From IMG/VR virus record IMGVR_UViG_3300030090_001695, positions 1 through 24,777 of that record: DNA of 24,777 nucleotides; one strand, given 5' to 3'. Every line of letters starts with the position of its first letter. Within the stretch, counting starts at the first letter, position 1. The DNA is from a virus. A program made the translations under genes and the position numbers. Of the stretch, positions 4,461 to 22,687 are shown piece by piece. Under the pieces are notes generated by a model. That model saw nothing but the letters and a program-made list of their open reading frames with translations. It did not search any database and was not told where the DNA came from.

Positions 4461-6440
4461 ATGCCTGATTTAGAACTTCAGGGTGTTTCCCCGTTATCAT
4501 TTAACTGTGAAGGGGGTCTTGTGCTAAACAGGTCCACCTTTATTATGCAACCCGGTCAGGCACTTGAGTTAGAAAACTTTGAGCCAGACGTAGGTGGTGG
4601 ATACAAACGCTTACTGGGTTTTAGACCTCTTGTGAACCAAATTGTACCACAAACAAATAATTCTACTGAGGCTGTTCTTTTAACAACCAAGTTTAACAAC
4701 TTTGTATTGGCTGCTAGGGGAGAAAGAATATTTAGTTCTGCATCAACAGAGTTAGCGATAAAAATAACATCTGGCACATCTATGACGGGGTCAGGTACGA
4801 TTACAGTAAACAGCACAACAGGGTTTAGTAGTAGTGGTACAATACAAATAAATTCAGAAATATTCACATACACTGGTAAATCTGCAGGTGCATTTACAGG
4901 TGTAACACGAGCAACAAGTAGCACAACAGCGGCTAATCATATAGTCACAGATGTAGTTTCAGAAACATGGACAATTAGAGACACGGACCGAACAAACGCC
5001 GCAAGATACAATTTTGAAAAGTACAATTTTGATGGCACTGACAAAATAATAGTAGTCGATCAAGTAAACAACCCAACGATATTTAATTCTTCTTTATCAG
5101 CTACAGACATTTCACCATCTACTGGAACTGGTCAAAACACACAAGTATTAGTTGCAATAGCTTCTGGCACAAGTATGACAGGTGCTGGCACAATAACGGT
5201 AGTTGACACCACTGGATTTAATAGCTCTGGTTCTCTACTCATAGGATCTGAAACATTCACATACACTGGTAAATCCTCTACTACATTTACAGGTGTTTCA
5301 CGTGCAACTTTAAGCAGTGCAGCGGCAGATCATTCTGTAGGGGACGCTGTCTTCGATTTGTTTCCCCCCACAGTAGGGGGTGCAAAATTTGTGGTGGCAT
5401 TTAAAGAACACATGTTTTATGCTGGGATGTCAACTAATAAACAAGAAATTGTATTTAGTGCTCCGTTTGATGAAACAAGTTTTTCCGCTGCTTCTGGTGC
5501 AGGTAGTATACGGGTTGATGATGAAATAACAGGATTAAAAGTCTTTAGAAGTGACTTATTCATATTTTGTAAAGACAGAATATTTAGATTATCAGGTTCT
5601 TCACAAGCAGATTTTGCTATTGTTCCTGTCACAAGAAACATTGGTTGCATAAACGGGTTTAGTATTCTTGAATTTGCGGGAGATTTGGTTTTCTTAGGTC
5701 CAGACGGACTTCGCACAGTTGCTGGTACTGCTCGTATTGGTGACGTTGAGTTGGGGACAATAAGTGGTAATGTACAGCAGTTGTTTAGGGAAAATCTTGA
5801 CGATGCAGATGCGTTTGTTTCTTTGGTCATACCTGATAAAACGCAATACAGAATATTCTTTTCAAAAGCTACGGGCACAGCCAGTGCAACCATAGGTGTG
5901 ATTGCAGTGATGAAGGGACAGGCGTTTGAGTTTTCTACAATGAAGGGCATACGTCCCGCCTGTGCAGATACTGTGATTGAAGACGGGGATGTAATCGTAG
6001 TGCATGGTGGCTTTGACGGGTTTGTCTACAGGCAAGAAAAAGGTAATACGTTTGATGGAACACTCATAAATGCAAAGTACAGAAGCCCAGATTTAAGTAT
6101 GGGTGATCCGGGTGTTCGTAAGCACATGCAGCGTGTTAATGTAAACTATGCACCGGAATCTACCATCGATGCTGACTTGTTTGTTCGATACGATTATGAA
6201 TCAAATACTTCAACAAGACCTGCCGCGTATCCGTTAGATAGTACAAATGTTGCAGGTTTGTATGGCACGTCGATTTATGGCAGTGCAGTGTACGGTGGAC
6301 CTTCACAACCTATTGTTCGTAAAGCAGTAGAAGGTTCAGGGTTTGCAGTTGCTTTACGGGTGGAAGATGGGGCAACTGCCACAGCCCCATATACTTTAAA
6401 AGGGTTTCAATTAGAATTTCAAGTGGGAGCGAGAAGGTAA
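4461..6440 (+). CDS. tail nozzle / tubular protein B-like (T7 gp12 / P22 gp10 type)
   Basis: A 659-residue tail protein directly after the adaptor. The N-terminus (GGLVLNR... MQPGQALELENFEPD, GGYKRLLGFRPL) has the pattern typical of nozzle/tail-stabilisation proteins of short-tailed phages. The rest is beta-rich (LFIFCKDRIFRL..., GDLVFLGPDGLRTV), consistent with a beta-propeller. Two related domains of about 60 residues, at 104-163 and 235-294, are an internal duplication (SGTSMTG.GTITV ... FTYTGKS...FTGV.RAT). It would close the tail tube and hold the fibres. The next gene starts immediately after the TAA. Confidence 0.8.
   Translation: MPDLELQGVSPLSFNCEGGLVLNRSTFIMQPGQALELENFEPDVGGGYKRLLGFRPLVNQIVPQTNNSTEAVLLTTKFNNFVLAARGERIFSSASTELAIKITSGTSMTGSGTITVNSTTGFSSSGTIQINSEIFTYTGKSAGAFTGVTRATSSTTAANHIVTDVVSETWTIRDTDRTNAARYNFEKYNFDGTDKIIVVDQVNNPTIFNSSLSATDISPSTGTGQNTQVLVAIASGTSMTGAGTITVVDTTGFNSSGSLLIGSETFTYTGKSSTTFTGVSRATLSSAAADHSVGDAVFDLFPPTVGGAKFVVAFKEHMFYAGMSTNKQEIVFSAPFDETSFSAASGAGSIRVDDEITGLKVFRSDLFIFCKDRIFRLSGSSQADFAIVPVTRNIGCINGFSILEFAGDLVFLGPDGLRTVAGTARIGDVELGTISGNVQQLFRENLDDADAFVSLVIPDKTQYRIFFSKATGTASATIGVIAVMKGQAFEFSTMKGIRPACADTVIEDGDVIVVHGGFDGFVYRQEKGNTFDGTLINAKYRSPDLSMGDPGVRKHMQRVNVNYAPESTIDADLFVRYDYESNTSTRPAAYPLDSTNVAGLYGTSIYGSAVYGGPSQPIVRKAVEGSGFAVALRVEDGATATAPYTLKGFQLEFQVGARR
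4770..5343 (+). repeat. duplicated domain within the nozzle gene
   Basis: Two diverged in-frame copies lie at about 4770-4949 and 5163-5342 (offset 393 bp, 131 codons). They encode the SGTSMTG...FTYTGKS...FTGV domain twice. A short identical stretch around 4862-4882 and 5255-5275 marks the best-conserved core. Confidence 0.85.
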
Positions 6441-8630
6441 ATGGGCGCAAATTATACACGGCAGTCCACGTACACTGATGGTGATACGATCAGTGCTGCT
6501 GATACCAACGATGAATTTGACCAACTGCTTGCGGCATTTGCAGCAAACACCGGGCATAGTCACGACGGCACAACGGGAGAAGGTGGACCTATCACCGCAT
6601 TAGCCACAAACACAATTACGTTTGGAACGGGTGCGGATACGGACATAGTCATAACGTTTAATGCAAACACCAATGACGGTGTTATATCGTGGATGGAAGA
6701 TGAAGATTACTTCCAGTTCTCAGACGAAATACTAATGACCGCAACGGAAAAGATTTTATTTCGTGATACAGCTTTGTCTATAAGTTCAACTGCCGACGGA
6801 CAGCTTGATATTGATGCTGATACAGAAGTTGAAATTACTGCTCCGCTTGTTGAGATATCTGCAGATGCAACAGTGGGGGATGACTTTACACTAAAGTCTG
6901 ATGCTGCTGTTCTTGGTTTTGGAGCAGATACAGATGTAACTTTGACGCACGTTGCCGACACAGCCCTATTGTTAAATAGTTCCCGGCAACTGCAGTTTGG
7001 TGACAGCGGAACATATATTCATCAATCAGCCGACGGTGTGCTTGATCTTGTATCCGATACAGAGATAGAGATCAATGCAACTACAATTGATGTGAATGGT
7101 ATCTTAGATCTTTCCAGTCAGCTACGTATGCCGGACAATACTGTAAACAAAATACTTGTAGCAGATGGCACCAGCTTTGAAGAAAAAGCTGTTGGTGATT
7201 TATCTGCACTCAGCAGCGTTGCCTCTGGTGACTTACTTCTTATTGTTGACGTTGATGATAGTAACAATCTAAAAAAGATAACCAGATCTGACTTGGTTAC
7301 AGGTCTTGCTTCTGGAACTATGACTGACGTTGTGGATGATACTAGCCCACAGCTTGGCGGTAACTTGGACATGAATGGTCAAGATATCGTGACTACATCC
7401 AACGCAAATATTGAGTTAGCTGCTAATGGCACAGGTCATGTAGTTATAAAAGGAAATACTAATCAAGGTGCTTTAACTCTTAATTGTGAAAATAATAGTC
7501 ATGGACAAAAGATTATTGCAGCATCACATAGTGATTTAAGCAGTGCTTCTGGTTACCCCTCTACTTTAACACTTCCAAGCGGGGGTTCTGCTAGTCAATC
7601 AATAATCACTACAGACTCAACACAAACACTTGCAAATAAAACACTAACTACACCTGTGATAGCAGAGATAGATAGCTCTGCAGATATTACCTTAGATGCA
7701 GATGCTGATATCGTGCTTGACGCTGCAGGGGGTAATATTGAATTTAAAGATGCAGGAACATTACAGTTAACCATTGACATGGACGGAACTGCTGGGGCAC
7801 AAGTTATACAGCTTGGTGTGGACAGTGATGATCTAATATTCAAGCAATACGATGGCTCAACTGTGCTGACTTTGGACGATGACACGACAGTCAAAGTTGC
7901 AACAGATCTTACAGTTGGGGACGATTTAGGTTTGATCTCTGACGGTGCTGTAGTAACTTTTGGTGCCAACTCCGAAATCACTCTAACTCACGTACATGAT
8001 TCAGGTCTTGCACTAAAACATACTGCTACTGGTGATGACAAGCCTATTGTCCTTACACTTCAAACTGGCGAAACAGATATTGCAGCGGATGATGTTATTG
8101 GCTCAATTAACTTCCAAGCACCGGATGAAGGCACAGGCACAGATGCTATACTGGTGGCAGCAGGTATAGAAGCTGTATCGGAAGGAGACTTTAGTTCATC
8201 TAACAATGCTACTAAGTTATCCTTCAAGACAGCAGCTTCAGCAGCAGCAGCAGAGACTATGTCTTTATCTTCAACAGGAAGTCTTACAATAGCAGGTAAG
8301 GCAGTTGGACCTGCTCCTACAGCAGTTACTTCTGGCAGTGAGGGTACTTCAAATCACCTAACTCACGACTTATCTAAAAATAACAACTTTATCACTACGT
8401 GTAGTGCGGCTGATGATATTGAATTTACTAATCTTACGGCTGGTCAATCGGGAAATATAATGTTTGTTAAAAGCGGAACAAATCAACCAACAGCATCTGC
8501 TGAAGTTGCCATAAACGCCTCTGCACTAACCAGCTTGGCAACAGCAGGAACTTATCATATGACGTATTTTGTAAAGGCTACATCTGGTGGAAATCATGTG
8601 TTGGTATCAGTTTCAGGAGCGTTGACCTAA
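6441..8630 (+). CDS. tail fibre protein with repeated beta modules
   Basis: A 729-residue Asp/Thr/Ser/Gly-rich protein with very few basic residues. The N-terminal 50 residues (YTDGDTISAADTNDEFDQL, then GHSHDGTTGEGG) are the probable virion-attachment part. The HSHDG stretch holds the HxH motif that binds metal in other fibres. Repeats follow: an ADGxLDI...DTE(V/I)EI module at about 112-140 and 191-218, and a TVGDD...GFGA(D/N)...TLTHV module at about 144-178 and 491-525. The C-terminal about 100 residues (TSGSEGTSNHLTHDLS... to the end) look like a separate distal domain. It is expected to be a trimeric, surface-exposed host-recognition fibre. Its TAA overlaps the next ATG (TAATG). Confidence 0.82.
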   Translation: MGANYTRQSTYTDGDTISAADTNDEFDQLLAAFAANTGHSHDGTTGEGGPITALATNTITFGTGADTDIVITFNANTNDGVISWMEDEDYFQFSDEILMTATEKILFRDTALSISSTADGQLDIDADTEVEITAPLVEISADATVGDDFTLKSDAAVLGFGADTDVTLTHVADTALLLNSSRQLQFGDSGTYIHQSADGVLDLVSDTEIEINATTIDVNGILDLSSQLRMPDNTVNKILVADGTSFEEKAVGDLSALSSVASGDLLLIVDVDDSNNLKKITRSDLVTGLASGTMTDVVDDTSPQLGGNLDMNGQDIVTTSNANIELAANGTGHVVIKGNTNQGALTLNCENNSHGQKIIAASHSDLSSASGYPSTLTLPSGGSASQSIITTDSTQTLANKTLTTPVIAEIDSSADITLDADADIVLDAAGGNIEFKDAGTLQLTIDMDGTAGAQVIQLGVDSDDLIFKQYDGSTVLTLDDDTTVKVATDLTVGDDLGLISDGAVVTFGANSEITLTHVHDSGLALKHTATGDDKPIVLTLQTGETDIAADDVIGSINFQAPDEGTGTDAILVAAGIEAVSEGDFSSSNNATKLSFKTAASAAAAETMSLSSTGSLTIAGKAVGPAPTAVTSGSEGTSNHLTHDLSKNNNFITTCSAADDIEFTNLTAGQSGNIMFVKSGTNQPTASAEVAINASALTSLATAGTYHMTYFVKATSGGNHVLVSVSGALT

Positions 8631-11743: not shown

Positions 11744-13081
11744 ATGGCAGATTTAACAGGTAAAACGGGCGATGCTCTGAGTGAAGAGCTTGTTAAAGCG
11801 CAAACTGAACAAGCGGAACAAACCGAACTCGATCCAAAACAAAAGATAACTCCAGTTGAATTAACGGAGAAGGAAAACGAACTCTTAACAGATACAAATG
11901 TTAAGATGAATGAAGTTTCTGCAGCAGTTCCGTCTGAGTTAGATTCAGCTATGTATGATCAAAGTGCTGTTGAAAAACAAGCAGCAAATACATACGCAGC
12001 TAAACAAGCAGTAGCCCCATCAGACATGGCAGCAGCAAAAGGCAGTCCATCAGATGATGCGTTGGTAGAAGCGGCACAAGGCAGTATTTCAGGAGATTCA
12101 TTAGCTACAGCCCAAACTGCAACTTTAGACCCACAAGCAACTGTCCAATATCAACTAGGGCAGTTAATGAGTTCGATACAGGCAGGTCAACCTTTACCTG
12201 CATGGGCTGCACCTCAAGTCCGTAAAGTAAGTGCAATTATGCAACAGCGCGGTTTAGGGTCAAGCTCTATGGCTGCAGCAGCTATGATACAAGCCATAAC
12301 TGAATCGGGTGTGGAGATAGCTGCAAGAGACGCTGACAAGTATGCAACCATGCAGTTAGCAAATCTAACAAATAAACAGCAAGCAGAGTTACAAAATGCG
12401 ACAGCGTTAGCTAACATGGACATGGCTAACTTGAACAACAGACAACAAGCAGCGGTTCAAAACGCAAAAACATTTTTGGCTATTGATACACAAAATTTAA
12501 CAAACGAACAACAAGCAAACACCATAAATTATCAGTCTGCTGTTCAAATGAAATTGTCCGATCAAGCTGCAGCAAATGCCGAACTACAGTTCAATGCAAA
12601 GTCCAAAAATCAAGTTGATATGTTTTTTGCAGAACTAGGATCACAAATTGAATCTGCAAATAAACAACGTGCGGTTGCTGTTGATCAATTCAACGTGAAT
12701 CAGTCAAGTGCCATGAGCCAGTTCAATGCGTCTATGGAAGCATCTAGGCAACAGTTCAACGCAAATATGCAATCCACTATTGATCAAAGTAACGTGGCTT
12801 GGCGTAGACAGATAAACACAGCGAACACTTCAGCCATAAACATGGCTAATCAACAAAACGTACAAACACTTTTGGGATTGAATCAGAACTCACTAAATAA
12901 CTTGTGGCAGTTATACAGGGATCAGGCTTCTTGGTCTATGCAAATATCACAAAACCAAGAAGACAGGGCACACAACGCAGCTATGCAATCTGCTGCGATA
13001 GCTGGTAATAAAGACCTGTATGAAGATCAGTTTGATGATTTCTTGAAAGTAAAAGCAATAGATTCAATATTCAGTATATAG
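11744..13081 (+). CDS. hendecad-repeat coiled-coil virion protein
   Basis: A 445-residue Ala/Gln/Asn-rich protein without Cys. The first about 130 residues are acidic and probably flexible. From about 195 to 350 it is a long helix with exact periodicity: NL(T/N)N.QQA starts at residues 207, 229 and 251 (22-residue steps), and QFN occurs at 282, 315, 326 and 337 with QSN at 348 (multiples of 11). An 11-residue (hendecad) repeat forms right-handed coiled coils. The end (YEDQFDDFLKVKAIDSIFSI) is amphipathic. I recall similar proteins from uncultured marine phages as uncharacterised. Position before two giant proteins suggests an internal or ejection-apparatus component. Confidence 0.72.
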   Translation: MADLTGKTGDALSEELVKAQTEQAEQTELDPKQKITPVELTEKENELLTDTNVKMNEVSAAVPSELDSAMYDQSAVEKQAANTYAAKQAVAPSDMAAAKGSPSDDALVEAAQGSISGDSLATAQTATLDPQATVQYQLGQLMSSIQAGQPLPAWAAPQVRKVSAIMQQRGLGSSSMAAAAMIQAITESGVEIAARDADKYATMQLANLTNKQQAELQNATALANMDMANLNNRQQAAVQNAKTFLAIDTQNLTNEQQANTINYQSAVQMKLSDQAAANAELQFNAKSKNQVDMFFAELGSQIESANKQRAVAVDQFNVNQSSAMSQFNASMEASRQQFNANMQSTIDQSNVAWRRQINTANTSAINMANQQNVQTLLGLNQNSLNNLWQLYRDQASWSMQISQNQEDRAHNAAMQSAAIAGNKDLYEDQFDDFLKVKAIDSIFSI

Positions 13082-13091
13082 TAGGTGGGAT

Positions 13092-13610
13092 ATGAGTATT
13101 TTTTCAACGGTAATGAAGGCAGTTGGTGGTTCTGTAGGTACTGCAGTTACTGCAGGTCTTGATAAGGTAAAAACTTATTTACCTCAAGGTGTGCAAAATT
13201 TTTTAACGACGTACTCCCCCATATCTTCTGCAGATATAGGGACAGAAATAGGCAATATAATTGGAAATATTGGTTCCGTCCCTGATCCAAATGATCCACA
13301 GGCACGGCTGCGAAGACCCAGTACAAGGTTTAGCGATCTGCCTTCTCCCGGAGTGATTTCTGCCAGATCCATGACAAGCCAACGACTGAACGCTCCGGGA
13401 AAAGCAGCTTTGATGCCGCTTGGTTCTACTCAACTAATATCAAAAGCTATTCAAGATGCACGAGTACAAAGTAAACTTGCAAAACTTGGTGGTTTCAACA
13501 TACCAACTCCCAACTTGAAAGGCGGCATTACCATATCTTTAACCAGTGCAGCCGTGCCTAGCGCAACATTATCACGTAAATACGGAACGACAACAACAAA
13601 GGTGACGTAG
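13092..13610 (+). CDS. hypothetical virion-associated protein, 172 aa
   Basis: Unrecognised protein. The N-terminus is Gly/Val/Ala-rich and hydrophobic (MKAVGGSVGTAVTAGLDKV). An amphipathic stretch with many Ile/Gly (TEIGNIIGNIGSV) follows, then a Pro/Arg-rich linker (PNDPQARLRRPSTRF) and a basic C-terminal region ending in a Thr-rich strand (RKYGTTTTKVT). The hydrophobic N-terminus could interact with membrane, as in ejection proteins; this is inference from composition and neighbourhood. A GGTGGG ribosome site precedes the ATG. Confidence 0.65.
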   Translation: MSIFSTVMKAVGGSVGTAVTAGLDKVKTYLPQGVQNFLTTYSPISSADIGTEIGNIIGNIGSVPDPNDPQARLRRPSTRFSDLPSPGVISARSMTSQRLNAPGKAALMPLGSTQLISKAIQDARVQSKLAKLGGFNIPTPNLKGGITISLTSAAVPSATLSRKYGTTTTKVT

Positions 13611-13611
13611 A

Positions 13612-14169
13612 ATGGCATTCGATAAGATCACACCTCTAGCTGCACCACCGGGACATTCCCTAACGGATGAACCCGGAAAGTGGGCATGGGAAAGACCACC
13701 CCAACATGCAGATCCCGATGAAGCTTTGGACTTTGTTCTTGATAAATTAGAAGAACCGTCCCGTAAAAGGGATATGATGCGGATGCTTGCAGCGGGTATA
13801 TCTATTGAAGAACTTGTATCACAGATCGCATTCAAAGGATTTATGCAAGGATTTTACACACCGGATGTTGCTGAGTTAATAAAGCCAAGCATAGCTATAT
13901 ACCTGTACTATGAGGGATTGCAAGAAGGATTTGAACCTCGTATGATGTTTGATCAAGCAGATGAAGAAGCAAAGGATGAAATGGCGGGTGAAGTCGATGA
14001 TGTTTCTTTCTTTAGAATACTTAAACAAAGAAATCCAGAGTTATTTAATGCCATGAATGAAGAACTAAACAAACAAGAACGATTACAAGTTGAAATGATG
14101 GCAAAAACTAAACAGCCTGACATGCCAGAAGAAATACCGCAATCATTTTTAGCTATGGGAGATAGGTAA
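13612..14169 (+). CDS. hypothetical protein, 185 aa, helical acidic
   Basis: A mostly helical acidic protein. A Pro-rich N-terminal arm (LAAPPGHSLTDEPGKWAWERPP) is followed by helical segments (EALDFVLDKLEEPSRKRDMMRML, EELVSQIAFKGFMQGF, IAIYLYYEGLQEGFEP). A Met/Gln/Glu-rich tail ends ...FLAMGDR. No membrane anchor or catalytic motif is visible. It sits 1 nt after the previous gene and 1 nt before the 983-aa gene, so it is almost certainly co-translated with the virion proteins. It could be a minor structural protein or an assembly chaperone for one of the giant proteins downstream. Confidence 0.68.
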   Translation: MAFDKITPLAAPPGHSLTDEPGKWAWERPPQHADPDEALDFVLDKLEEPSRKRDMMRMLAAGISIEELVSQIAFKGFMQGFYTPDVAELIKPSIAIYLYYEGLQEGFEPRMMFDQADEEAKDEMAGEVDDVSFFRILKQRNPELFNAMNEELNKQERLQVEMMAKTKQPDMPEEIPQSFLAMGDR

Positions 14170-14170
14170 T

Positions 14171-17122
14171 ATGGCAGATCCGTTATTGTTAGGCGTATAC
14201 GCTGTAGGAAGAATGCTTGCTTCAAGTAGCGCGGCTAGAGCAAAAGAACAAGAAGAAGAAAAAAAGAAGAAAGAAGATCTTCAAAAGGCTAATGCTGAGA
14301 GGGTGGTTTCGTATTTCGGTAGAAAAACTCCGGATGGACCAATTCAACCCTTGAATTTTATGGAAAGAAAATTTCCTGATTACGACGTGACACATGTGCA
14401 GTTTGGAACTAACGCACCTGTAAAACAAGACCCTGTAACTAAACCTGTTCCTGTATACACTGTAGATGGAAGAGGCAATGACCTGTTTACAGAAGCAGAC
14501 TTGGATAAATTAATTGTGCCCATGCTTGGAAAATTTGGCACTAAAGATGAAATTATGAAACTTGCTACTCGCGTTGGCACACAAGATGTGACGAAAACAA
14601 CAGGAAGGCCAATTGGAACCCCTAATTTTTTTCCACAGGACATGAGAACAAGGCCTGAAGATGAAAGTGTTTTTAAGTTCTATGCAGAAGATCCAGATGG
14701 ACAGGCAATTACCGGAGATACCGAAACAGAAGTCAGACAAGCACTAAAAGATGGGCAAGTAAAAGATTTCGATACTATCCCAATCGGTCAAATTGAAATG
14801 AAAGGGGATAGAAGAGTCTCAAAGGTAGAGTATCCTGAACAAGAAGACGATCCTGTAGTACGAAAAACATTAGTAGATGCGTACAAAATAGATCCAACAA
14901 ATGGAAAGCCCGACCTTAACTCTTTTGGTCCAATCCCCCTAACAGACTATTACAAAGCTCCAAGCAGTTTTAAGGTTGTTGGTCAGCCCTATGAGCTTAA
15001 AGGAGACACAAACGAAAGAAACTTTGTAGCAGGGTTAGAAATAGCAGATTTAAAAGGTGCTATGGACCAATCCCTTAATGTACTGAACGTAAGTTACACA
15101 TTAGATGGAGAAGATAAAAAGTTCTCAATTCCTGCAGAAAGTAAAACTGTAAAGCCATATGTGCAGCTACAACTTTTACAAGATTTTATCGCAGGTCTTC
15201 CAAAAACAGAAAGCGGTGCAATTGATTTTAGAAAAGTACGAATGGGTGAGGAACAAATAGCAAACCTTGCATTTTCTGCGGCTCAGATCGTTAAACTTAA
15301 TAATCAAGCACGAACACAAGCGGGGGATCTCATACCAAATAATGAACTGGTGGTGGATGCTGCTTTGTATGTTAATAATAGCTACCGCCAGTTACGACTC
15401 ATACCGGGGTTTGAACAAGAACTAAGATATATAGCAAATTTGGATACCAGAGAAGCCATAGAAAATGTGACAAATCAACACTCTGTAAATCCAGAAACAG
15501 GACTGCCACAGGAAGTTGTGGTCATAGAACAATCGACGAGTGTTCCTGAAGCGGTACACAATGATCCTTCTGGAGTGGATTCGGACGCACAACAGTCAAC
15601 CAATGCTGTACCATTAACTGTATTTTCAGCCGCACCATATCCCCCACGATACAAAAATACGGTGGATTTTGTCTTAGCAGACATGTCCGGGAATGGAACA
15701 CCAGACAATGTTCGTAAAGCTAAAGAAAATTTTGGAACTCTTATTAATTACAAAAAGACTCCTGACGGGGGACTTGCAAGAGGTCCAAATAGAGAGCTTT
15801 TAATATTAGATGATCAACCATCTTTAGACTTTTTAAACTATGTAACTCAAACAACCATACCCGGCGGTGGTGGGAATCTATATCCAATTTGGAAAAACAT
15901 GCTTTTACTTGGAGCCGAACAAACAAACGTAAATGCAGATGTTGCAAAGGCTATTCGCATTCAATTTAACGCTGAAGTAGGCGATAATTTTGAATTAGGA
16001 AAAAACTTGATAATGGCATTTTCACCTGATGCTACCGGAAACAAAAGGGACCAAATACTGTTCACCGCTCAAACTGGTAAAAATTCAAAAAAATATGACA
16101 AGTTACAACAGCAGAAACTTGCCGAAGCTGACTCAGCATCCACTGCCATAAGAATTGGTGATCTGATGCTACGTAATTACTTCTTAGACAACGGGCAGGA
16201 AATACCGTTTGGCACGGCACTTGGTCAGTTTTTTGTAGGAATAGACGGTGCTTTGTATAATTTACGAACGGCTCTTCCGTCGGTTGGTAGATTAGTTGAT
16301 ACGTTATTAGGGCAAGGTAAATTACGAGAAGTTACTCAGTCCGAAGCGTTCACGACAGCCGAAGCAAGTATATACGGGGTTGATGAAAATGGCGAAAGAG
16401 CATTTGTAAATGTTTTAGAAAATTCTACCGCTGATGAAATAGCTGCTATGGCTGAAGAAGAAGGTAAAACTGTAGCTCAATTTAAAGCAGATGAAAGAGC
16501 AGCAAGAAAAGCAAATAGAGCGTTGTTTGAAAAAACAGTTGCCGGAATAGTGTCGAATGATGAAGCGGTCAGAAAACTTGCCATACGAAATTACTACAGA
16601 TTCATGTTAGCATATTCTGTGGCCGCTGCAATTCAAGGGGGCACAGGTGGACGAACAATATCCGACCAAGACGTTCAAAATGTGTTAAACGCATTTAAAA
16701 TGAATACTGTAGGTGTAAAACCATCTACAGAAAGAGCAATAATCAGGGAAGTCATATCCATGATGAGCGGCAGAGAAAAGTTTGCAAGAGCCATAGCTGC
16801 AGGTGGCAATGAAGCTTACGCTGCACTCAAGCTGCAGGAGCTTCTATTACCTAGCTCCATGATGGGAACAAATATGACAATAGACTCATTTATTGAAGCT
16901 GTGGAGCAACCCGGACCAGCAGACGATCAAGTGGATCAAACTGGAGCAGCAGCAGGGTATGATCCGGATGCTGATACACGCACAGAAGCTCAAAAACTAA
17001 AAGCTGTGAACGACACGCAAGATCCTACTTTTGGACAAGAATTTGATAGTCTGGATGAAGCTCGTCAAGCCGGAATCAGTGTGAATAGAATCCTACTAAA
17101 CACCTTACCTGTACGGGAATAA
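14171..17122 (+). CDS. large virion protein (983 aa), candidate internal/ejection protein
   Basis: A 983-residue protein. The hydrophobic N-terminus (LLLGVYAVGRMLASSSAARA) is followed by a highly charged helix (KEQEEEKKKKEDLQ). The long middle, about 60-600, is mixed alpha/beta with no motif I recognise. A helical C-terminal third includes TADEIAAMAEEEGKTVAQF and a hydrophobic stretch near 809-825 (FMLAYSVAAAIQ). The last about 70 residues are acidic. Together with the next gene it occupies the place where short-tailed phages often encode internal virion proteins that are ejected to extend the tail through the envelope. That role is inferred from size and order; no enzymatic domain is visible. 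Confidence 0.68.
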   Translation: MADPLLLGVYAVGRMLASSSAARAKEQEEEKKKKEDLQKANAERVVSYFGRKTPDGPIQPLNFMERKFPDYDVTHVQFGTNAPVKQDPVTKPVPVYTVDGRGNDLFTEADLDKLIVPMLGKFGTKDEIMKLATRVGTQDVTKTTGRPIGTPNFFPQDMRTRPEDESVFKFYAEDPDGQAITGDTETEVRQALKDGQVKDFDTIPIGQIEMKGDRRVSKVEYPEQEDDPVVRKTLVDAYKIDPTNGKPDLNSFGPIPLTDYYKAPSSFKVVGQPYELKGDTNERNFVAGLEIADLKGAMDQSLNVLNVSYTLDGEDKKFSIPAESKTVKPYVQLQLLQDFIAGLPKTESGAIDFRKVRMGEEQIANLAFSAAQIVKLNNQARTQAGDLIPNNELVVDAALYVNNSYRQLRLIPGFEQELRYIANLDTREAIENVTNQHSVNPETGLPQEVVVIEQSTSVPEAVHNDPSGVDSDAQQSTNAVPLTVFSAAPYPPRYKNTVDFVLADMSGNGTPDNVRKAKENFGTLINYKKTPDGGLARGPNRELLILDDQPSLDFLNYVTQTTIPGGGGNLYPIWKNMLLLGAEQTNVNADVAKAIRIQFNAEVGDNFELGKNLIMAFSPDATGNKRDQILFTAQTGKNSKKYDKLQQQKLAEADSASTAIRIGDLMLRNYFLDNGQEIPFGTALGQFFVGIDGALYNLRTALPSVGRLVDTLLGQGKLREVTQSEAFTTAEASIYGVDENGERAFVNVLENSTADEIAAMAEEEGKTVAQFKADERAARKANRALFEKTVAGIVSNDEAVRKLAIRNYYRFMLAYSVAAAIQGGTGGRTISDQDVQNVLNAFKMNTVGVKPSTERAIIREVISMMSGREKFARAIAAGGNEAYAALKLQELLLPSSMMGTNMTIDSFIEAVEQPGPADDQVDQTGAAAGYDPDADTRTEAQKLKAVNDTQDPTFGQEFDSLDEARQAGISVNRILLNTLPVRE

Positions 17123-17123
17123 C

Positions 17124-20100
17124 ATGGCAATTGATGATCAAAAAACACTAGAAGAACAGATGCTGCAAATTCAGCAGGATCAGGTAAAACGCTCTATGGG
17201 AGTCGGTGCTCCCGGTACACCAACCAGTGTGACACCGCCACCGTTTAGTGGGGTGGGGGCAGTGGGTCAATTTGAGGGAAAAAGTCGGTTTCCCGCTTTA
17301 AAAACCACCGGGGATTTCAATACCTTTGAAGGTGGTTTTGACCGTCCTGTGTTTGAAAAAGAAAAAGAGCCGCTGGATTTAGGTTTTGGTTTGTTTAGCA
17401 GGGACATAAGTTTGGGTATAGATCTACCTACAGATGTAAAAGTCACGATAGCTGATCCTGCTAAAATAACTCCAGCACTACGCATCCAACAAGTAATGGA
17501 TTTTGAAAATCCAAAAATCGTCACAGGCTTTGAAAAATCGTTGGGTGTAAGAAACAAGAATGGTAAAGAGCTATACTTTAGAGAAGATCAAGGTTATGCA
17601 GAACGTTTAGATGCGGCAAATCGTTTTGGGGCAACGTCCATAATTAAAGAAGATGGAAACCTGTTTAAGATCCCGTGGGAAAATAAAATTTATGACATGA
17701 CTCGTTTGCAAGACCCAGATCAAATGTTGCGATACGATGTGGATACAGGAGAAATTGAATTAGGCCCAACAGGAAAAGCACAAAGACAGATAGTCACTGA
17801 ACAAATTAGGGCTGGTGATGTAACTCGTGAGGAGTTTGAACGTATTCGTGACGCAAAAATGTTAGGCAGTTTAAATTTTACGGACCCTGAAGTAGCCAAA
17901 CCTATGTTTGCAGACTTTTTAAATAACAAACTAATTCAGGGGGGCATAGAAGACGCTCGTACCCGTGCGGATTTAATAAACGCAAGTATAACGACGTTTT
18001 CTATGGATGATCATAGAAAGATAGCTTCAAGCATTGGTGAAAATACTATTAGATTCACTTTAGGTATGGGTCTTTGGGGATTTGGTGAGACTACTGATGC
18101 AGCCATCAAGATCATAAACGAACTAGGAATAAAGTTTGGCAACCTTGATGAAATACCTGAAGAAGACATGGGCTGGGCTGACATACGACAATCTGATCGT
18201 CGTGAAGCCATAATGGAACAGATCTGGATACCTTTCTCACACATGTTGATTGCAGAAGCCGCTCAACGAGGTGTTGAAATTTCCCTTGCTGACGCGGAGA
18301 CGTATATTTCTACTTTAACTGGTTTAGTCCCTCGCATAGCAAAGCTAACAGGGGAGTTTGCTTTACCAAGTAGAATGGCTGCTTCCGTGTCAAAAAAGCT
18401 GGCTGTAAACAGTCGCGCCGATTTTATGCAATACTTTTTACAAAAAACAGGGCAAAGGTATTACAACAAAGATACCCGTCGGTACGAAGTAAAAGATGTA
18501 TCGCCGGATGAACAACGACAGTTTGATGACATATTAGATGAATACGTACAGATAAAGGCTGGGAGAATCTTGGATGAAACTACGGGCACGTTTACAGATG
18601 CACCTTCATGGTTAACGAAAATAAAAGCTGGCACGGTAGAAAATAGAATTAGACGTGGCACACAGATAGCTGATTCAAAACTAACTGCTGAAAGTAGAAA
18701 AGAAGTCATAGACGCCACAACATATTTAGATAACGCAATAACAAGAAGAGACGCATACGCTGCCGGGATACAAAAAAGAAGAAGCGCAGGTAAAACAATA
18801 ACAGAAGCAGATTCAGTAAAACTACGTTCATTAACCGCTACGGTTGATGCAGCGGTACGCTCTAAAAGAAGGGCAGAATTATTTAGTTCAACCCCTAAAT
18901 TTATGAGAGATATAGGTGTAACCGATGCCTTTATGATAATGGGAGCAGCGACTGTAGGTCATTTCTTTCAACAGAACACGGATACTGAGGGAGTTACTGG
19001 CGATGCCATGATGGGAGAGCTTTTTGGTTTAGGTGCCGGAATCGCTCTTTCGTTAACTGCAGGGTCAGTTCCTGCTGCTTTAGATTTCATAAAGAAGAAG
19101 AACTTTCTATTCTATGGATCTGGAACTAAAAAGGGTTACACCGCATGGTTGGCTAAAAATATATCTACCCTAGCCCCAGAATTACAACAACAAATTACTA
19201 TGAGAGCACAGGCAATAGATGATATTCACACAACGTTAGTCGCGGAAGGTTTGGACCCCGGCCTGTTGGATTTAGGATTTGCAGAGATAAGTGGACTTGT
19301 AACATTAAAATCTTTGGAAGATATGGTTAGGAGTAAACTATCAACGGGGCAAATTCAAAATTTTGATGTGGGGCATTTACAAGAAATAATGCAATATCAA
19401 AAGGAACTTGTAGCAAATTTACGTCAAGTTGCATCAGGTTTGGGTAGTGGAATAGGCGGGACTCCAAAGGGAGATTTTAGAAAAATCATTGACATGGCTA
19501 TACAACAAGGCCAAGAGTCTGCAGAAAGGCTTTCAAAGGATCTTAAAATCATAAACAAACGCGGTGTAGAACATTACCTTGATATAACTCGTGGAAATAC
19601 TATGGCTCATCAAAAAGGCCAAACAAATGATGGGTTTGAAAAGGCTCTGGATAGACTGGATGAAGACAATCTTGTGGACGCTGATTCTTTACCAAGAGTT
19701 ACATTCAATCAACAGGTAGATGACGCACATTCAAGAATACATGAAGAACTGGGACAAAAAGCAGACTATACCAGATCAGAACTTGCGAACATAAGTCAAA
19801 CAAAAGTTGCGGTTACAGCAGCCACTGGCCCTACGATTAAAGCGGCTGGACAGTCTGAAGAAGTAACTATAGCTAGTTTAGAAAAAACAGGGGATCTTTT
19901 AGCCGCTTTATCAGAGTCTCGTCATGCAGCAGAAAAAGCAAAAGCAAAACGTCCGTACGCTATACTTGATCGTGGACAATTTATTGATGTAGATGCAGAT
20001 GGTAATATACTTGGTGCAGTTCCCGGAAATCCAACGGTGAATGTTGCAACAATATTTGACCAAATATTTGTTGGTGTAGAAGATTTACCATCAGCCAAGT

Positions 20101-22250
20101 TAAGAGGTGCTACCGTAACATCCGGCGAAATGGCAAATTTTGATGAAACCGTCCAGATATTATCTGAACCCTATTTTATCTCCCTTGCAGAAGGAAGCGA
20201 TCAATCTGTTAAAGAAGTCGTTGATGCTATGGTGCTTGCTGCACAGGATGACGGACTAAAAATAGTTAAAGGTTTATCAAAACAAACTCAACTTGTGCGT
20301 TGGTTGCGTAAAACTGCAGCAGAGGAAGGCTCAGAACTAGATGCGGGTCTTGAAATGACGTTCTCTCAACTTAGAGAGTTTGATAAGAGCATTCGGCACT
20401 TAGCAAACAGATCTTACGCAAGAGGAAACAATACAAGAGGTGAAATATATACAAACATAGAGAACGCTATTCAAACCAAATTCGATCAGTTTGAAGTTGT
20501 AAATCAAAATGGTGATCGTGTTTCAATAAATGATCTCAGTGTTATGACGGTGAACGACGTTGGTGAAGACGTGCCTGTTAGTGTACGACAGCTTTTAGAT
20601 GAAGGAAATGCAGGATGGGCTAAATTTAAATCCAACTGGTATGATCAAAATGAAAGAGCAATCATGCCCAAGTGGATGAGTTGGGGAGATAGAAGTTTTG
20701 GTCCTGCAACCAGAGATGAACCTCTTGGTATACGGTATGGAAGAACACCAGACACTTGGTTTGATGTGAAAAAGATAGGGGCAATGGACCCACAAGTAGA
20801 GGGATTTGAATTTTACAAATCTTTACGACGAACTTTAGGAAGGGAAGTTGTAAATACTGATGGGTCAATTGAGTATGCTCTTGTAGAAGGTGAAAGCACA
20901 ACTATTGCTCTTGAAAAAATAGTAAAAACTGCTATAGCAGATTACGTTATTTCTAATAGAATCAACATGTCACCAGATCAGTTAGCCAAAGTAGCAACTA
21001 ATATGAACGCTACGTTTACTATGAAAGGTGCTGATGGAAAAATAAAACCCCTGTTGGACATAGAATCTGTGATAGATGATGCCATAGGTTACAGTAGAAA
21101 ATCTGTGGGGGATCAGGCATATGAAGCAGCTAACGCCACTGCACGAAACAATATCGAAACTGCAATTGAAAAAGCAATAGAACCTGCTGAAAAAGCTTTA
21201 CGAGAAAAACAGTTAGCAATAAGTGTTCTGGAGAGATTTACCGGACAGAAACTAAAAGATGATCAGATAGCTGATGCGTTGGTTTCTGGTGGTGCTTTAG
21301 AACTAGAAAAACTTAGAACTCAATTGAAATCTGCGAGTAAAGGCAAGTTCTCCGATGAACAAATTGATAAGATACTTGCAGATATATATGTAGACTCTAT
21401 GGAACAAAGAGTTTTCTACAACACAAACAGAAGCATACAAACTGCAGAGGGAGATAGCATAGGCAGAGAACTCATAAACGTAGATGAAATCGAACGTATG
21501 CTTGGTGTAAACGATAAAGAAAAAGCTCCCATAATACGTAAATTGATTGGAGAAAGAAGATACAGAGTTTGGCAAGCAATGAGTGATCTTATGACTTCAC
21601 GAGAAAATCATTACAAAAAATCTGATTTTGAAGTGACAGGAGTTCCAAGATCGTTTGCTATGGAGTCGTATATAAGTAGGTTGTACGCTCTCAACAGAGG
21701 TGTTATAAGCACAAAGTATGTGGTGGCAGAAGCAACCCTCATGGCGTTTAGAAGTAGAAGATTCAGAACTGCATCCGAAATATTGAAAGACCCTGCGTTG
21801 GGAGAAATGTTTATAGAGATGGTTCGTTCCGGCAAACCTTTTTCTCCAAACATGAACCAAAGCGATCAATTCATATCTGCCCTAACAGTAGCTTTTGCCA
21901 AAACAGCAAACCAAATAGGAAACCCAGAACCCAAAACTATGTACGATCAATATGGTAGAGAGTTCAAAATTTTACGCGACGTAAATTCAAGCAATATAAT
22001 AAAAACGGGTAGAGATGTGTCATTTGATATAGAAGCTCTAAAAGAAATAAGTGCAAAGAGAGGATTCAATAACGTACAGGAGTTTATTGAAAAAGAAAAC
22101 ATAACCAGAATGGAAGATGGTAGATATTACGGAGTTCCAATACCTCAATTCCCAGAAATACAGAGGGCACAACAACAAAACTTTGCAACCGAAAGCGGCC
22201 CACTTACTGGTGCGCCTTTTCTTAAATCGCCATTAGGCACTGCTCAATAG
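17124..22250 (+). CDS. giant virion protein (1708 aa), candidate internal/ejection protein
   Basis: The largest gene here, 1708 residues, starting 1 nt after the 983-aa gene. A Pro/Gly-rich N-terminal arm (about 25-60) leads into a mostly helical, charged protein. Hydrophobic segments occur near 308-330 (FTLGMGLWGFGETTDAAIKII) and 600-655 (FMIMGAATVGHFF, then LFGLGAGIALSLTAGSVPAAL), which could insert in a membrane. Long helical, coiled-coil-prone stretches lie around 1330-1440. Size and location recall T7 gp16, an ejected channel protein, but I see no N-terminal lytic transglycosylase motif, so the similarity is positional. The C-terminus ends Pro/Gly-rich after a FNNVQEFIEKENI segment. Confidence 0.7.
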   Translation: MAIDDQKTLEEQMLQIQQDQVKRSMGVGAPGTPTSVTPPPFSGVGAVGQFEGKSRFPALKTTGDFNTFEGGFDRPVFEKEKEPLDLGFGLFSRDISLGIDLPTDVKVTIADPAKITPALRIQQVMDFENPKIVTGFEKSLGVRNKNGKELYFREDQGYAERLDAANRFGATSIIKEDGNLFKIPWENKIYDMTRLQDPDQMLRYDVDTGEIELGPTGKAQRQIVTEQIRAGDVTREEFERIRDAKMLGSLNFTDPEVAKPMFADFLNNKLIQGGIEDARTRADLINASITTFSMDDHRKIASSIGENTIRFTLGMGLWGFGETTDAAIKIINELGIKFGNLDEIPEEDMGWADIRQSDRREAIMEQIWIPFSHMLIAEAAQRGVEISLADAETYISTLTGLVPRIAKLTGEFALPSRMAASVSKKLAVNSRADFMQYFLQKTGQRYYNKDTRRYEVKDVSPDEQRQFDDILDEYVQIKAGRILDETTGTFTDAPSWLTKIKAGTVENRIRRGTQIADSKLTAESRKEVIDATTYLDNAITRRDAYAAGIQKRRSAGKTITEADSVKLRSLTATVDAAVRSKRRAELFSSTPKFMRDIGVTDAFMIMGAATVGHFFQQNTDTEGVTGDAMMGELFGLGAGIALSLTAGSVPAALDFIKKKNFLFYGSGTKKGYTAWLAKNISTLAPELQQQITMRAQAIDDIHTTLVAEGLDPGLLDLGFAEISGLVTLKSLEDMVRSKLSTGQIQNFDVGHLQEIMQYQKELVANLRQVASGLGSGIGGTPKGDFRKIIDMAIQQGQESAERLSKDLKIINKRGVEHYLDITRGNTMAHQKGQTNDGFEKALDRLDEDNLVDADSLPRVTFNQQVDDAHSRIHEELGQKADYTRSELANISQTKVAVTAATGPTIKAAGQSEEVTIASLEKTGDLLAALSESRHAAEKAKAKRPYAILDRGQFIDVDADGNILGAVPGNPTVNVATIFDQIFVGVEDLPSAKLRGATVTSGEMANFDETVQILSEPYFISLAEGSDQSVKEVVDAMVLAAQDDGLKIVKGLSKQTQLVRWLRKTAAEEGSELDAGLEMTFSQLREFDKSIRHLANRSYARGNNTRGEIYTNIENAIQTKFDQFEVVNQNGDRVSINDLSVMTVNDVGEDVPVSVRQLLDEGNAGWAKFKSNWYDQNERAIMPKWMSWGDRSFGPATRDEPLGIRYGRTPDTWFDVKKIGAMDPQVEGFEFYKSLRRTLGREVVNTDGSIEYALVEGESTTIALEKIVKTAIADYVISNRINMSPDQLAKVATNMNATFTMKGADGKIKPLLDIESVIDDAIGYSRKSVGDQAYEAANATARNNIETAIEKAIEPAEKALREKQLAISVLERFTGQKLKDDQIADALVSGGALELEKLRTQLKSASKGKFSDEQIDKILADIYVDSMEQRVFYNTNRSIQTAEGDSIGRELINVDEIERMLGVNDKEKAPIIRKLIGERRYRVWQAMSDLMTSRENHYKKSDFEVTGVPRSFAMESYISRLYALNRGVISTKYVVAEATLMAFRSRRFRTASEILKDPALGEMFIEMVRSGKPFSPNMNQSDQFISALTVAFAKTANQIGNPEPKTMYDQYGREFKILRDVNSSNIIKTGRDVSFDIEALKEISAKRGFNNVQEFIEKENITRMEDGRYYGVPIPQFPEIQRAQQQNFATESGPLTGAPFLKSPLGTAQ

Positions 22251-22261
22251 AGGATGATGAA

Positions 22262-22687
22262 ATGAAACAATACAACAATGGTCCACGTAAAACCATGTCA
22301 TACGGGGGTATGCCAATGCGTAAACCCATGATGAAGGGTGGAAAAGTAAAAAAGATGCAAGCAGGGGGAAAGGCAAAGAAAAAGGCATCCCCTATAATGC
22401 CAGCAACTCCTATGACAGCCGCTAGTCAGAGAACACCTATGGCAATGGGTGGCATGTCTGCTACACAACAGCAGCAGAACATGCAGCAGAATATGATGCC
22501 AACCAATATGACATCTGGACAGATGAATCAAATGCAGACTGACATGATGCAGTCACCGAAGTTGCGGATGGCACCGGGAGGAACTGCATTTGGTATGTTA
22601 AGTGTAAAAGCGGGAGTGGATAACAATCCTAATCCAACTCAAGCAGATCGTATAGTTGGAGCAAAAAAGAACAAGCGTAAATCTTAA
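22262..22687 (+). CDS. Met-rich basic protein, 141 aa
   Basis: Low-complexity protein: 22 of 141 residues are Met, with many Lys, Gln, Gly and Asn. A basic Gly/Lys N-terminal part (PMMKGGKVKKMQAGGKAKKK) is followed by a Met/Gln/Thr-rich centre (about 50-105) and a basic end (GAKKNKRKS). It is probably disordered and could bind nucleic acid or pack inside the capsid. Function is unknown. A GAGGATGATGA ribosome-site region separates it from the giant protein. It is the last plus-strand gene, and its TAA overlaps the stop codon of the convergent minus-strand gene. Confidence 0.65.
   Translation: MKQYNNGPRKTMSYGGMPMRKPMMKGGKVKKMQAGGKAKKKASPIMPATPMTAASQRTPMAMGGMSATQQQQNMQQNMMPTNMTSGQMNQMQTDMMQSPKLRMAPGGTAFGMLSVKAGVDNNPNPTQADRIVGAKKNKRKS
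22684..22687. other. convergent stop-codon overlap between the two operons
   Basis: The plus-strand TAA (22685-22687) and the minus-strand TAA (22686-22684) overlap within TTAA. No hairpin plus T-run terminator is visible on either side by eye. Confidence 0.85.

Follow-up and report, generated by a model that had tools for sequence, protein, structure and literature searches.

The rod gene and its neighbours

The stretch of DNA analysed here, which we call the window, is virus record IMGVR_UViG_3300030090_001695 and comprises 24,777 bases. It encodes a 445-aa protein, probably a virion protein judging from the position of its gene, in which a conserved anchor leads into two arrays of 11-residue units joined by a conserved junction (Table 1).

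Table 1. Parts of the rod gene and the genes that follow it in the window
Feature	Position	Strand	Basis
445-aa hendecad-rod protein	11744..13081 (including stop)	+	ORF list; homologues in 20 IMG/VR contigs and 27 phage records, later 467 ORFs
Residues 1-132, variable N-terminal part, mostly predicted disordered	11744..12139	+	AF2 pLDDT <50 for residues 25-132
Residues 150-205, conserved N-terminal anchor PAWA...RGLGSSSMAAAA...EIAxxDA	12191..12358	+	Near-invariant alignment columns; AF2
Residues 207-272, upstream array of 6 hendecad units (NLxNxQQA) with a strong 22-residue period	12362..12559	+	
Residues 273-305, conserved junction DQAAxNAxxxFNAxSxNQ; Asn ladder interrupted (D273, F295), register kept	12560..12658	+	
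Residues 306-382, downstream array of 7 hendecad units of the QFNxNQ type, with WRR anchor (W353)	12659..12889	+	
Residues 383-445, C-terminal helix with LWxxYRD anchor and tail	12890..13078	+	
172-aa neighbour	13092..13610	+	Associated by position only
185-aa neighbour	13612..14169	+	phmmer matches in seven phages (E 1e-25 to 6e-9)
983-aa neighbour, gp15-like by position and size only	14171..17122	+	
1708-aa giant neighbour, gp16-like by position and size only	17124..22250	+	Hydrophobic segment at about residues 597-656

Among homologues, which range from 435 to 1141 aa, the N-terminal part is swapped for unrelated extensions and the C-terminal tails differ; judged by motif, 44 of the 467 ORFs end in an S74 chaperone domain. 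The N-terminal anchor is predicted to form a helix-turn-helix leading into the rod, with an AF2 pLDDT of 70-87 at the anchor start. We found no match to the 445-aa protein in PHROG, NCBIfam, the PDB or the ejection families in Pfam, and a Foldseek search gave no PDB fold and, in a viral library, mainly homologues. The only Pfam match, to GHMP-kinase (E 0.004, below the cut-off) over the GLGSSSMAA anchor, was rejected as motif mimicry or chance. The RGLGSSSMAAAA anchor (12248-12283, residues 169-180) sits in a predicted helical turn and resembles the GHMP glycine-rich motif, giving weak GHMP-kinase matches in 11 of 39 members.

Homologues are found in HMO-2011, Roseobacter CRP phages, Pelagibacter phages HTVC033P/103P/104P/115P, Sinorhizobium phage phiM6, Rhizobium phages, Aeromonas phages MQM1 and 1233, Vibrio phage CHOED, Pseudoalteromonas phage Slicky01 and many IMG/VR contigs, mostly annotated as "hypothetical protein". 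Both phage1322_25 of HMO-2011 and CHOED_013 of CHOED carry that annotation; they and their relatives are true homologues that have the same anchors, register and gene order, with rods 66 and 11 aa longer, respectively, than that of the window. The homologue of phage isolate ctYwJ313 (L036:2050-4641) carries the label 'huntingtin', an artefact that evidently arose from its low-complexity, Gln/Pro-rich sequence.

Of the genes next to the rod gene, the 185-aa ORF, which bears no family name, is the best conserved (seven phages); its homologues of 164-188 aa, several of them with two hydrophobic helices, follow the rod gene in the phages compared, usually within a gene or two, and it is a candidate small pore protein. 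The 172-aa neighbour has no detectable relatives among these phages, and the 983-aa protein has no family match and is not conserved in sequence among them. Indeed, the large neighbours are not detectably conserved between the named phages and the window, and gp15/gp16-like proteins are likewise reported as poorly conserved (PMC8954989). Wherever we read this block in the named phages, the rod gene is followed by one or a few small genes and then by large proteins, and both these annotated neighbourhoods and the window ORFs place it at the head of a block ending in a much larger protein, as is the case for podophage ejection proteins. As regards the gp16-like giant neighbour, the RCA phages, which are related, have a gene named internal virion protein D (PMC6918029).

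Upstream of the rod gene lie receptor-binding genes, including one of 843 aa with SPRY and DUF7483. Repeated modules (TVGDDFTLKSDAAVLGFGADTDVTLTHV / TVGDDLGLISDGAVVTFGANSEITLTHV) occur in the 729-aa protein (6441-8630), and the 659-aa protein (4461-6440) has two similar inserts (SGTSMTGSGTITVNSTTGF... / SGTSMTGAGTITVVDTTGF...). A small downstream ORF (22262-22687) shares a KGGKVKKMQAGG-type glycine/lysine motif with the rod protein of HMO-2011, where it lies in the N-terminal part (KGGMIRKMQTGG; L021:10861-12981).

An eleven-residue register

The initial annotation described an exact 11/22-residue repeat in this protein, a claim that we can confirm and that proves to have been understated. The motif positions are exact, with NL[TN]NxQQA at residues 207, 229 and 251, QFN at 282, 315, 326 and 337, and QSN at 348. 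The periodicity analysis that it proposed, carried out as identity autocorrelation over residues 195-360, gives peaks at lags of 22 (z 7.1), 44 (z 5.9), 11 (z 4.0) and 33 (z 3.0), and the best of these values was reached by none of 2000 shuffles. Both motif sets lie in one register, as N207 and the Asn of QFN at 284 are 77 residues apart. When the sequence is wrapped at 11, Asn stands at 14 of 16 successive unit starts between residues 207 and 372 (207, 218, 229, 240, 251, 262, 284, 306, 317, 328, 339, 350, 361 and 372), the only exceptions being D273 and F295, and the register extends past residue 350, where it had been thought to end, to about residue 382. Among the neighbouring proteins no comparable lag-11 repeat was detected, the best signal at this lag being one z value of 3.5, from the 1708-aa protein. 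At the DNA level the repeats of the rod are ancient, with about 38% base identity at lag 66, and Tandem Repeats Finder detected no 33- or 66-bp array in the window rod. Because the repeats share so few bases at this lag, assembly collapse is unlikely here.

The same register is found across the family. In 2381 units from 85 clusters below 70% identity, Asn makes up 66% of position 1, and residue identity across homologues is enriched 1.82-fold at lag 11 and 2.44-fold at lag 22, against 0.84-fold at lag 7. The rod is rich in Ala, Gln, Asn and Leu (Asn and Gln together about 29%), with 1.3% Gly, 3.9% Val and few basic residues. Among the 85 cluster representatives there is not one proline in 27,211 rod residues, compared with 1971 in 33,435 residues (5.9%) upstream.

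Rod length changes in whole units

To compare rod lengths we built ungapped HMMs of the GxGSS...PIAxxDA helix and of the WRR...LWxxYRD segment, anchors that do not belong to the motif repeats, and 467 ORFs from HMO-2011-type and related podophages have both; this set is redundant, and its matches in metagenome contigs are unverified assemblies. The anchor-to-anchor distance equals 161 + 11k residues in 466 of the 467, where 161 is the distance in the window protein, which shows the full family signature (PAWA/GxGSS/PIA and WRR...WxxYRD anchors at 161 + 11k). More than 20 non-zero length classes exist, from -44 to +616 aa, corresponding to rods of 12 to 72 units (117-777 aa between anchors), and the whole-11 rule holds for every cluster, whether these are formed at 60% identity (46 of 46) or at 70% (85 of 85). 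The sole exception (L425, ORF from 1949) has a single-residue insertion adjoining the C anchor, just before WRR. As a control, the 35 distinct C-terminal tail lengths of the same proteins scatter over all residues modulo 11. The comparison of homologues suggested earlier, for whole units gained or lost, thus came out almost perfectly, and loss of spacing, which would have counted against the repeat, was not seen: the register is kept in all homologues examined, apart from this one-residue slip. When the rod is split at the DQAAxNAxxxFNA junction, both parts vary in elevens, the upstream one from -44 to +616 and the downstream one from -22 to +132. A length-matched antiparallel hairpin is disfavoured because the two segments vary independently.

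Closely related pairs show how units come and go. The DNA of two members (L316 and L332) is identical over the compared stretch outside one 66-bp (22-aa) gap that ends in motif repeats; in another pair (L147 and L171), with 92% DNA identity, there is one 33-bp (11-aa) gap flanked by QFN-coding repeats; and other close pairs have single gaps of 66, 121 and 110 aa. Inside one 72-unit rod a 330-bp tandem duplication (110 aa, ten hendecads) is present in 3.6 copies with 80% matches (L372:1069-2250), an array type that assembly collapse could affect, and across the family the length classes form ladders in 110-aa steps. The clean 33- and 66-bp gaps at motif repeats therefore point to slippage or recombination between these repeats as the supply of whole units, whereas the near absence of other indels despite great divergence, together with the freedom of the tails, points to selection for the register. 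Replication slippage or recombination would deliver 33- or 66-bp units, and selection would purge those changes that break the facial register. One could argue instead that the rule is mainly mutational, with repeat slippage yielding only 33n-bp indels and a register that is structurally meaningless, since both closest indel pairs break inside motif repeats and tandem 330-bp copies exist. We think this very improbable: in most members the repeats are far diverged, yet non-11 indels occur in 1 of 467 ORFs over rods of 117-777 aa and down to 22-30% identity, the tails of the same proteins show free indels, and Asn, facial hydrophobicity and the absence of proline are conserved too.

Predicted structure and hydrophobic faces

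AF2 predicts the rod to be helical throughout, at low confidence. With 41 sequences it gives helices at residues 175-283 and 287-444 (mean pLDDT 50), and with 59 sequences, over residues 133-445, a series of helices with short breaks, several at register Asn (207, 251, 284, 317), at a mean pLDDT of 65. Residues 195-350, for which the initial annotation had asked for a long helix, are thus predicted as helix in both models, short breaks apart, and the absence of proline supports a helix through the repeat.

On an 11/3 helical wheel, two opposite hydrophobic stripes appear, at positions 2/10 and 8/11 (with 4), about 165 degrees apart; between them lie charged positions 5 and 9 on one side and polar positions 3 and 7 on the other, with Asn at position 1. 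The second harmonic of the wheel is accordingly much larger than the first, at 0.40 versus 0.08 over homologues and 0.37 versus 0.08 in the window protein (p 0.003). This facial reading requires that the helix be real, because the second harmonic on such a wheel has the frequency of a 2.2-residue period. Both that period and an Asn at every 11th position would also fit a beta-solenoid of 11 residues per turn with an Asn ladder; AF2, however, shows helix and no strand, and the composition, rich in Ala, Gln, Asn and Leu and with so little Gly and Val, also speaks against it, so that we regard a solenoid as extremely unlikely.

Two stripes favour helices with neighbours on two sides, and they argue against both a lipid-binding helix with one face and a plain coiled coil with a single seam. 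Hendecad (11/3) coiled coils resemble the rod in having an 11-residue register and unit-wise length changes that preserve it, but they have one seam, whereas the rod has two stripes and Asn at nearly every register repeat. Hence the earlier reading of the protein as a hendecad coiled coil stands for the 11-residue register, present across many units, and for the long helix, as far as the low-confidence and briefly interrupted AF2 models go, but not for the single hydrophobic seam expected at a, d, e and h, in place of which the two-faced pattern is found. Repeats of 11 and 22 helix-forming residues are also what an amphipathic membrane-surface helix of the synuclein/perilipin/apolipoprotein type would show, one that coats or deforms the host membrane during ejection. 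We consider this quite unlikely, as the hydrophobic residues form opposite stripes rather than one face, leaving almost no first harmonic, basic residues are few, and Asn and Gln are so abundant. Staves of a bundle or barrel fit the modelled two-stripe helix better than does either a simple coiled coil or a lipid-binding helix.

Possible role in DNA ejection

We propose a long alpha-helical rod, free of proline and with a single 11-residue (three-turn) register, which belongs to the phage DNA-ejection module as a stave-like channel part, a reading that we regard as about evenly balanced between right and wrong and for which we infer the ejection role, the oligomeric state and the handedness. 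That the rod forms part of an ejection tube, as the initial annotation had suggested, is plausible from synteny and from the S74 domain that the family shares with DNA-ejection proteins. Each helix would pack against a neighbour on both sides, so that several copies line up like the staves of a helical bundle or barrel, with the register Asn forming repeating polar layers or hinge points. Stored in the virion, the rod protein would be ejected together with the 185-, 983- and 1708-aa proteins encoded after it, and it would then line or scaffold part of a trans-envelope channel, 16 units spanning about 26 nm if they form one straight helix (here and below, lengths in nm are calculated for a fully straight rod at 1.5 A per residue). 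The homologue of Roseobacter phage CRP-235 (L033:1684-4218) has an N-terminal LysM domain (PF01476) as well as a C-terminal S74 chaperone; together the two may put the rod at the peptidoglycan, and the LysM fits with periplasmic contact. A typical podovirus head measures about 60 nm. The longest rods (72 units, about 119 nm if straight) could not lie straight in such a head, which means that they are either stored in folded form or external.

The S74 domain (PF13884) bears on two readings at once. S74 tails are confined to one clade, all of one length class, and their closest matches outside the family include, besides a spike/chaperone protein from an Octadecabacter virus, several Vibrio phage proteins for DNA injection/transfer, which fall in phrog_598 and phrog_4287 ('DNA ejection'). 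Trimeric tail fibres typically carry S74 as well, and the window protein is without it; these points count against the ejection model, as do the low AF2 confidence and the breaks that the second model places at several register Asn. The main alternative is an external trimeric fibre or spike whose shaft is the rod: three strands would form a right-handed 11/3 coiled coil, and S74, where present, would serve as the trimerisation module. Besides the S74 tails of that one length class, the rods longer than a capsid diameter favour such a fibre, and free length variation is typical of fibres. Yet the receptor-binding genes lie upstream while the rod gene heads a block of large gp15/gp16-like proteins, the close S74 relatives sit on P22-type DNA-ejection proteins, two-faced helices are unexpected for a plain trimer, the LysM of the CRP-235 homologue is on the N-terminal side, and the window protein is not S74-bearing. 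A fibre therefore seems to us a serious but distinctly less probable explanation than a channel part. The position of the gene in the virion module and the disordered, variable N-terminus would equally suit a rod that stays in the head, as a scaffold or as a DNA/portal spacer that is not ejected; the links to the ejection block and the presence of S74 on DNA-ejection proteins make this improbable.

More speculatively, the family might represent a new class of ejection channel or scaffold in abundant marine podophages, made of side-by-side, two-faced hendecad staves with Asn layers, whose length (about 20 to 119 nm extended) is tuned in 11-residue steps, perhaps to the host envelope, although we hold the full proposal to be doubtful. 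The rod looks like a variant not described before, a hendecad-built ejection-module protein of unit-quantised length. Our literature searches returned nothing relevant on phage internal proteins with hendecad or 11-residue repeats, neither a structure nor virion proteomics for any rod-family member, and no study of the delivery machinery of HMO-2011-type phages, which are described as dominant and broadly distributed in the ocean (PMC9038755). The quantisation of length provides a direct, testable rule that ties helix geometry to evolution, and the natural series of 12-72 units could serve cryo-EM work as well as the question of how the length of a phage's envelope-spanning parts is determined. 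The register also gives a recognisable signature to what has been a conserved hypothetical protein.

Comparison with known ejection systems

The P22 gp7-type ejection proteins of Vibrio phages PVA1 and 199E37-1 resemble the rod family in being encoded by the first gene of the ejection block and in carrying a C-terminal S74 that is 41-46% identical to that of the CRP-235 homologue, but they have no 11-residue repeat and no similarity to the rod outside S74. Indeed, similarity in sequence to known ejection proteins of the T7 gp14 / P22 gp7 class is lacking, and hhalign profile comparisons of the rod with T7 gp14 (probability 0.3%) and with P22-like ejection proteins were negative.

The gp14-gp15-gp16 ejectosome of T7 shares with the rod locus a block of virion genes that follows the tail tube and nozzle genes in small-then-giant order, and its helical proteins build a trans-envelope channel (PMC8954989, PMC11784390), in which gp14 is a hexamer of paired helices (PMC11784390). 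Unlike the rod, T7 gp14, gp15 and gp16 show no lag-11 signal, and gp14-like proteins are of near constant length, at 181-240 aa (PMC8954989), whereas the rod varies from 12 to 72 units.

In the Pseudomonas phage DEV, a schitovirus, gp72 and gp73 are described as a helical tube of about 300 A, made of a helical protein and a small pore protein (PMC10925440). The passages of that description that we consulted do not mention a hendecad register for gp72:gp73. The DEV layout of helical tunnel, small membrane pore and giant protein (gp72/gp73/gp71) is analogous to the rod, the 185-aa protein and the giant protein of the window. The gene layout, the S74 likeness and this resemblance to DEV therefore lead us to favour a stave-like component of an ejection channel.
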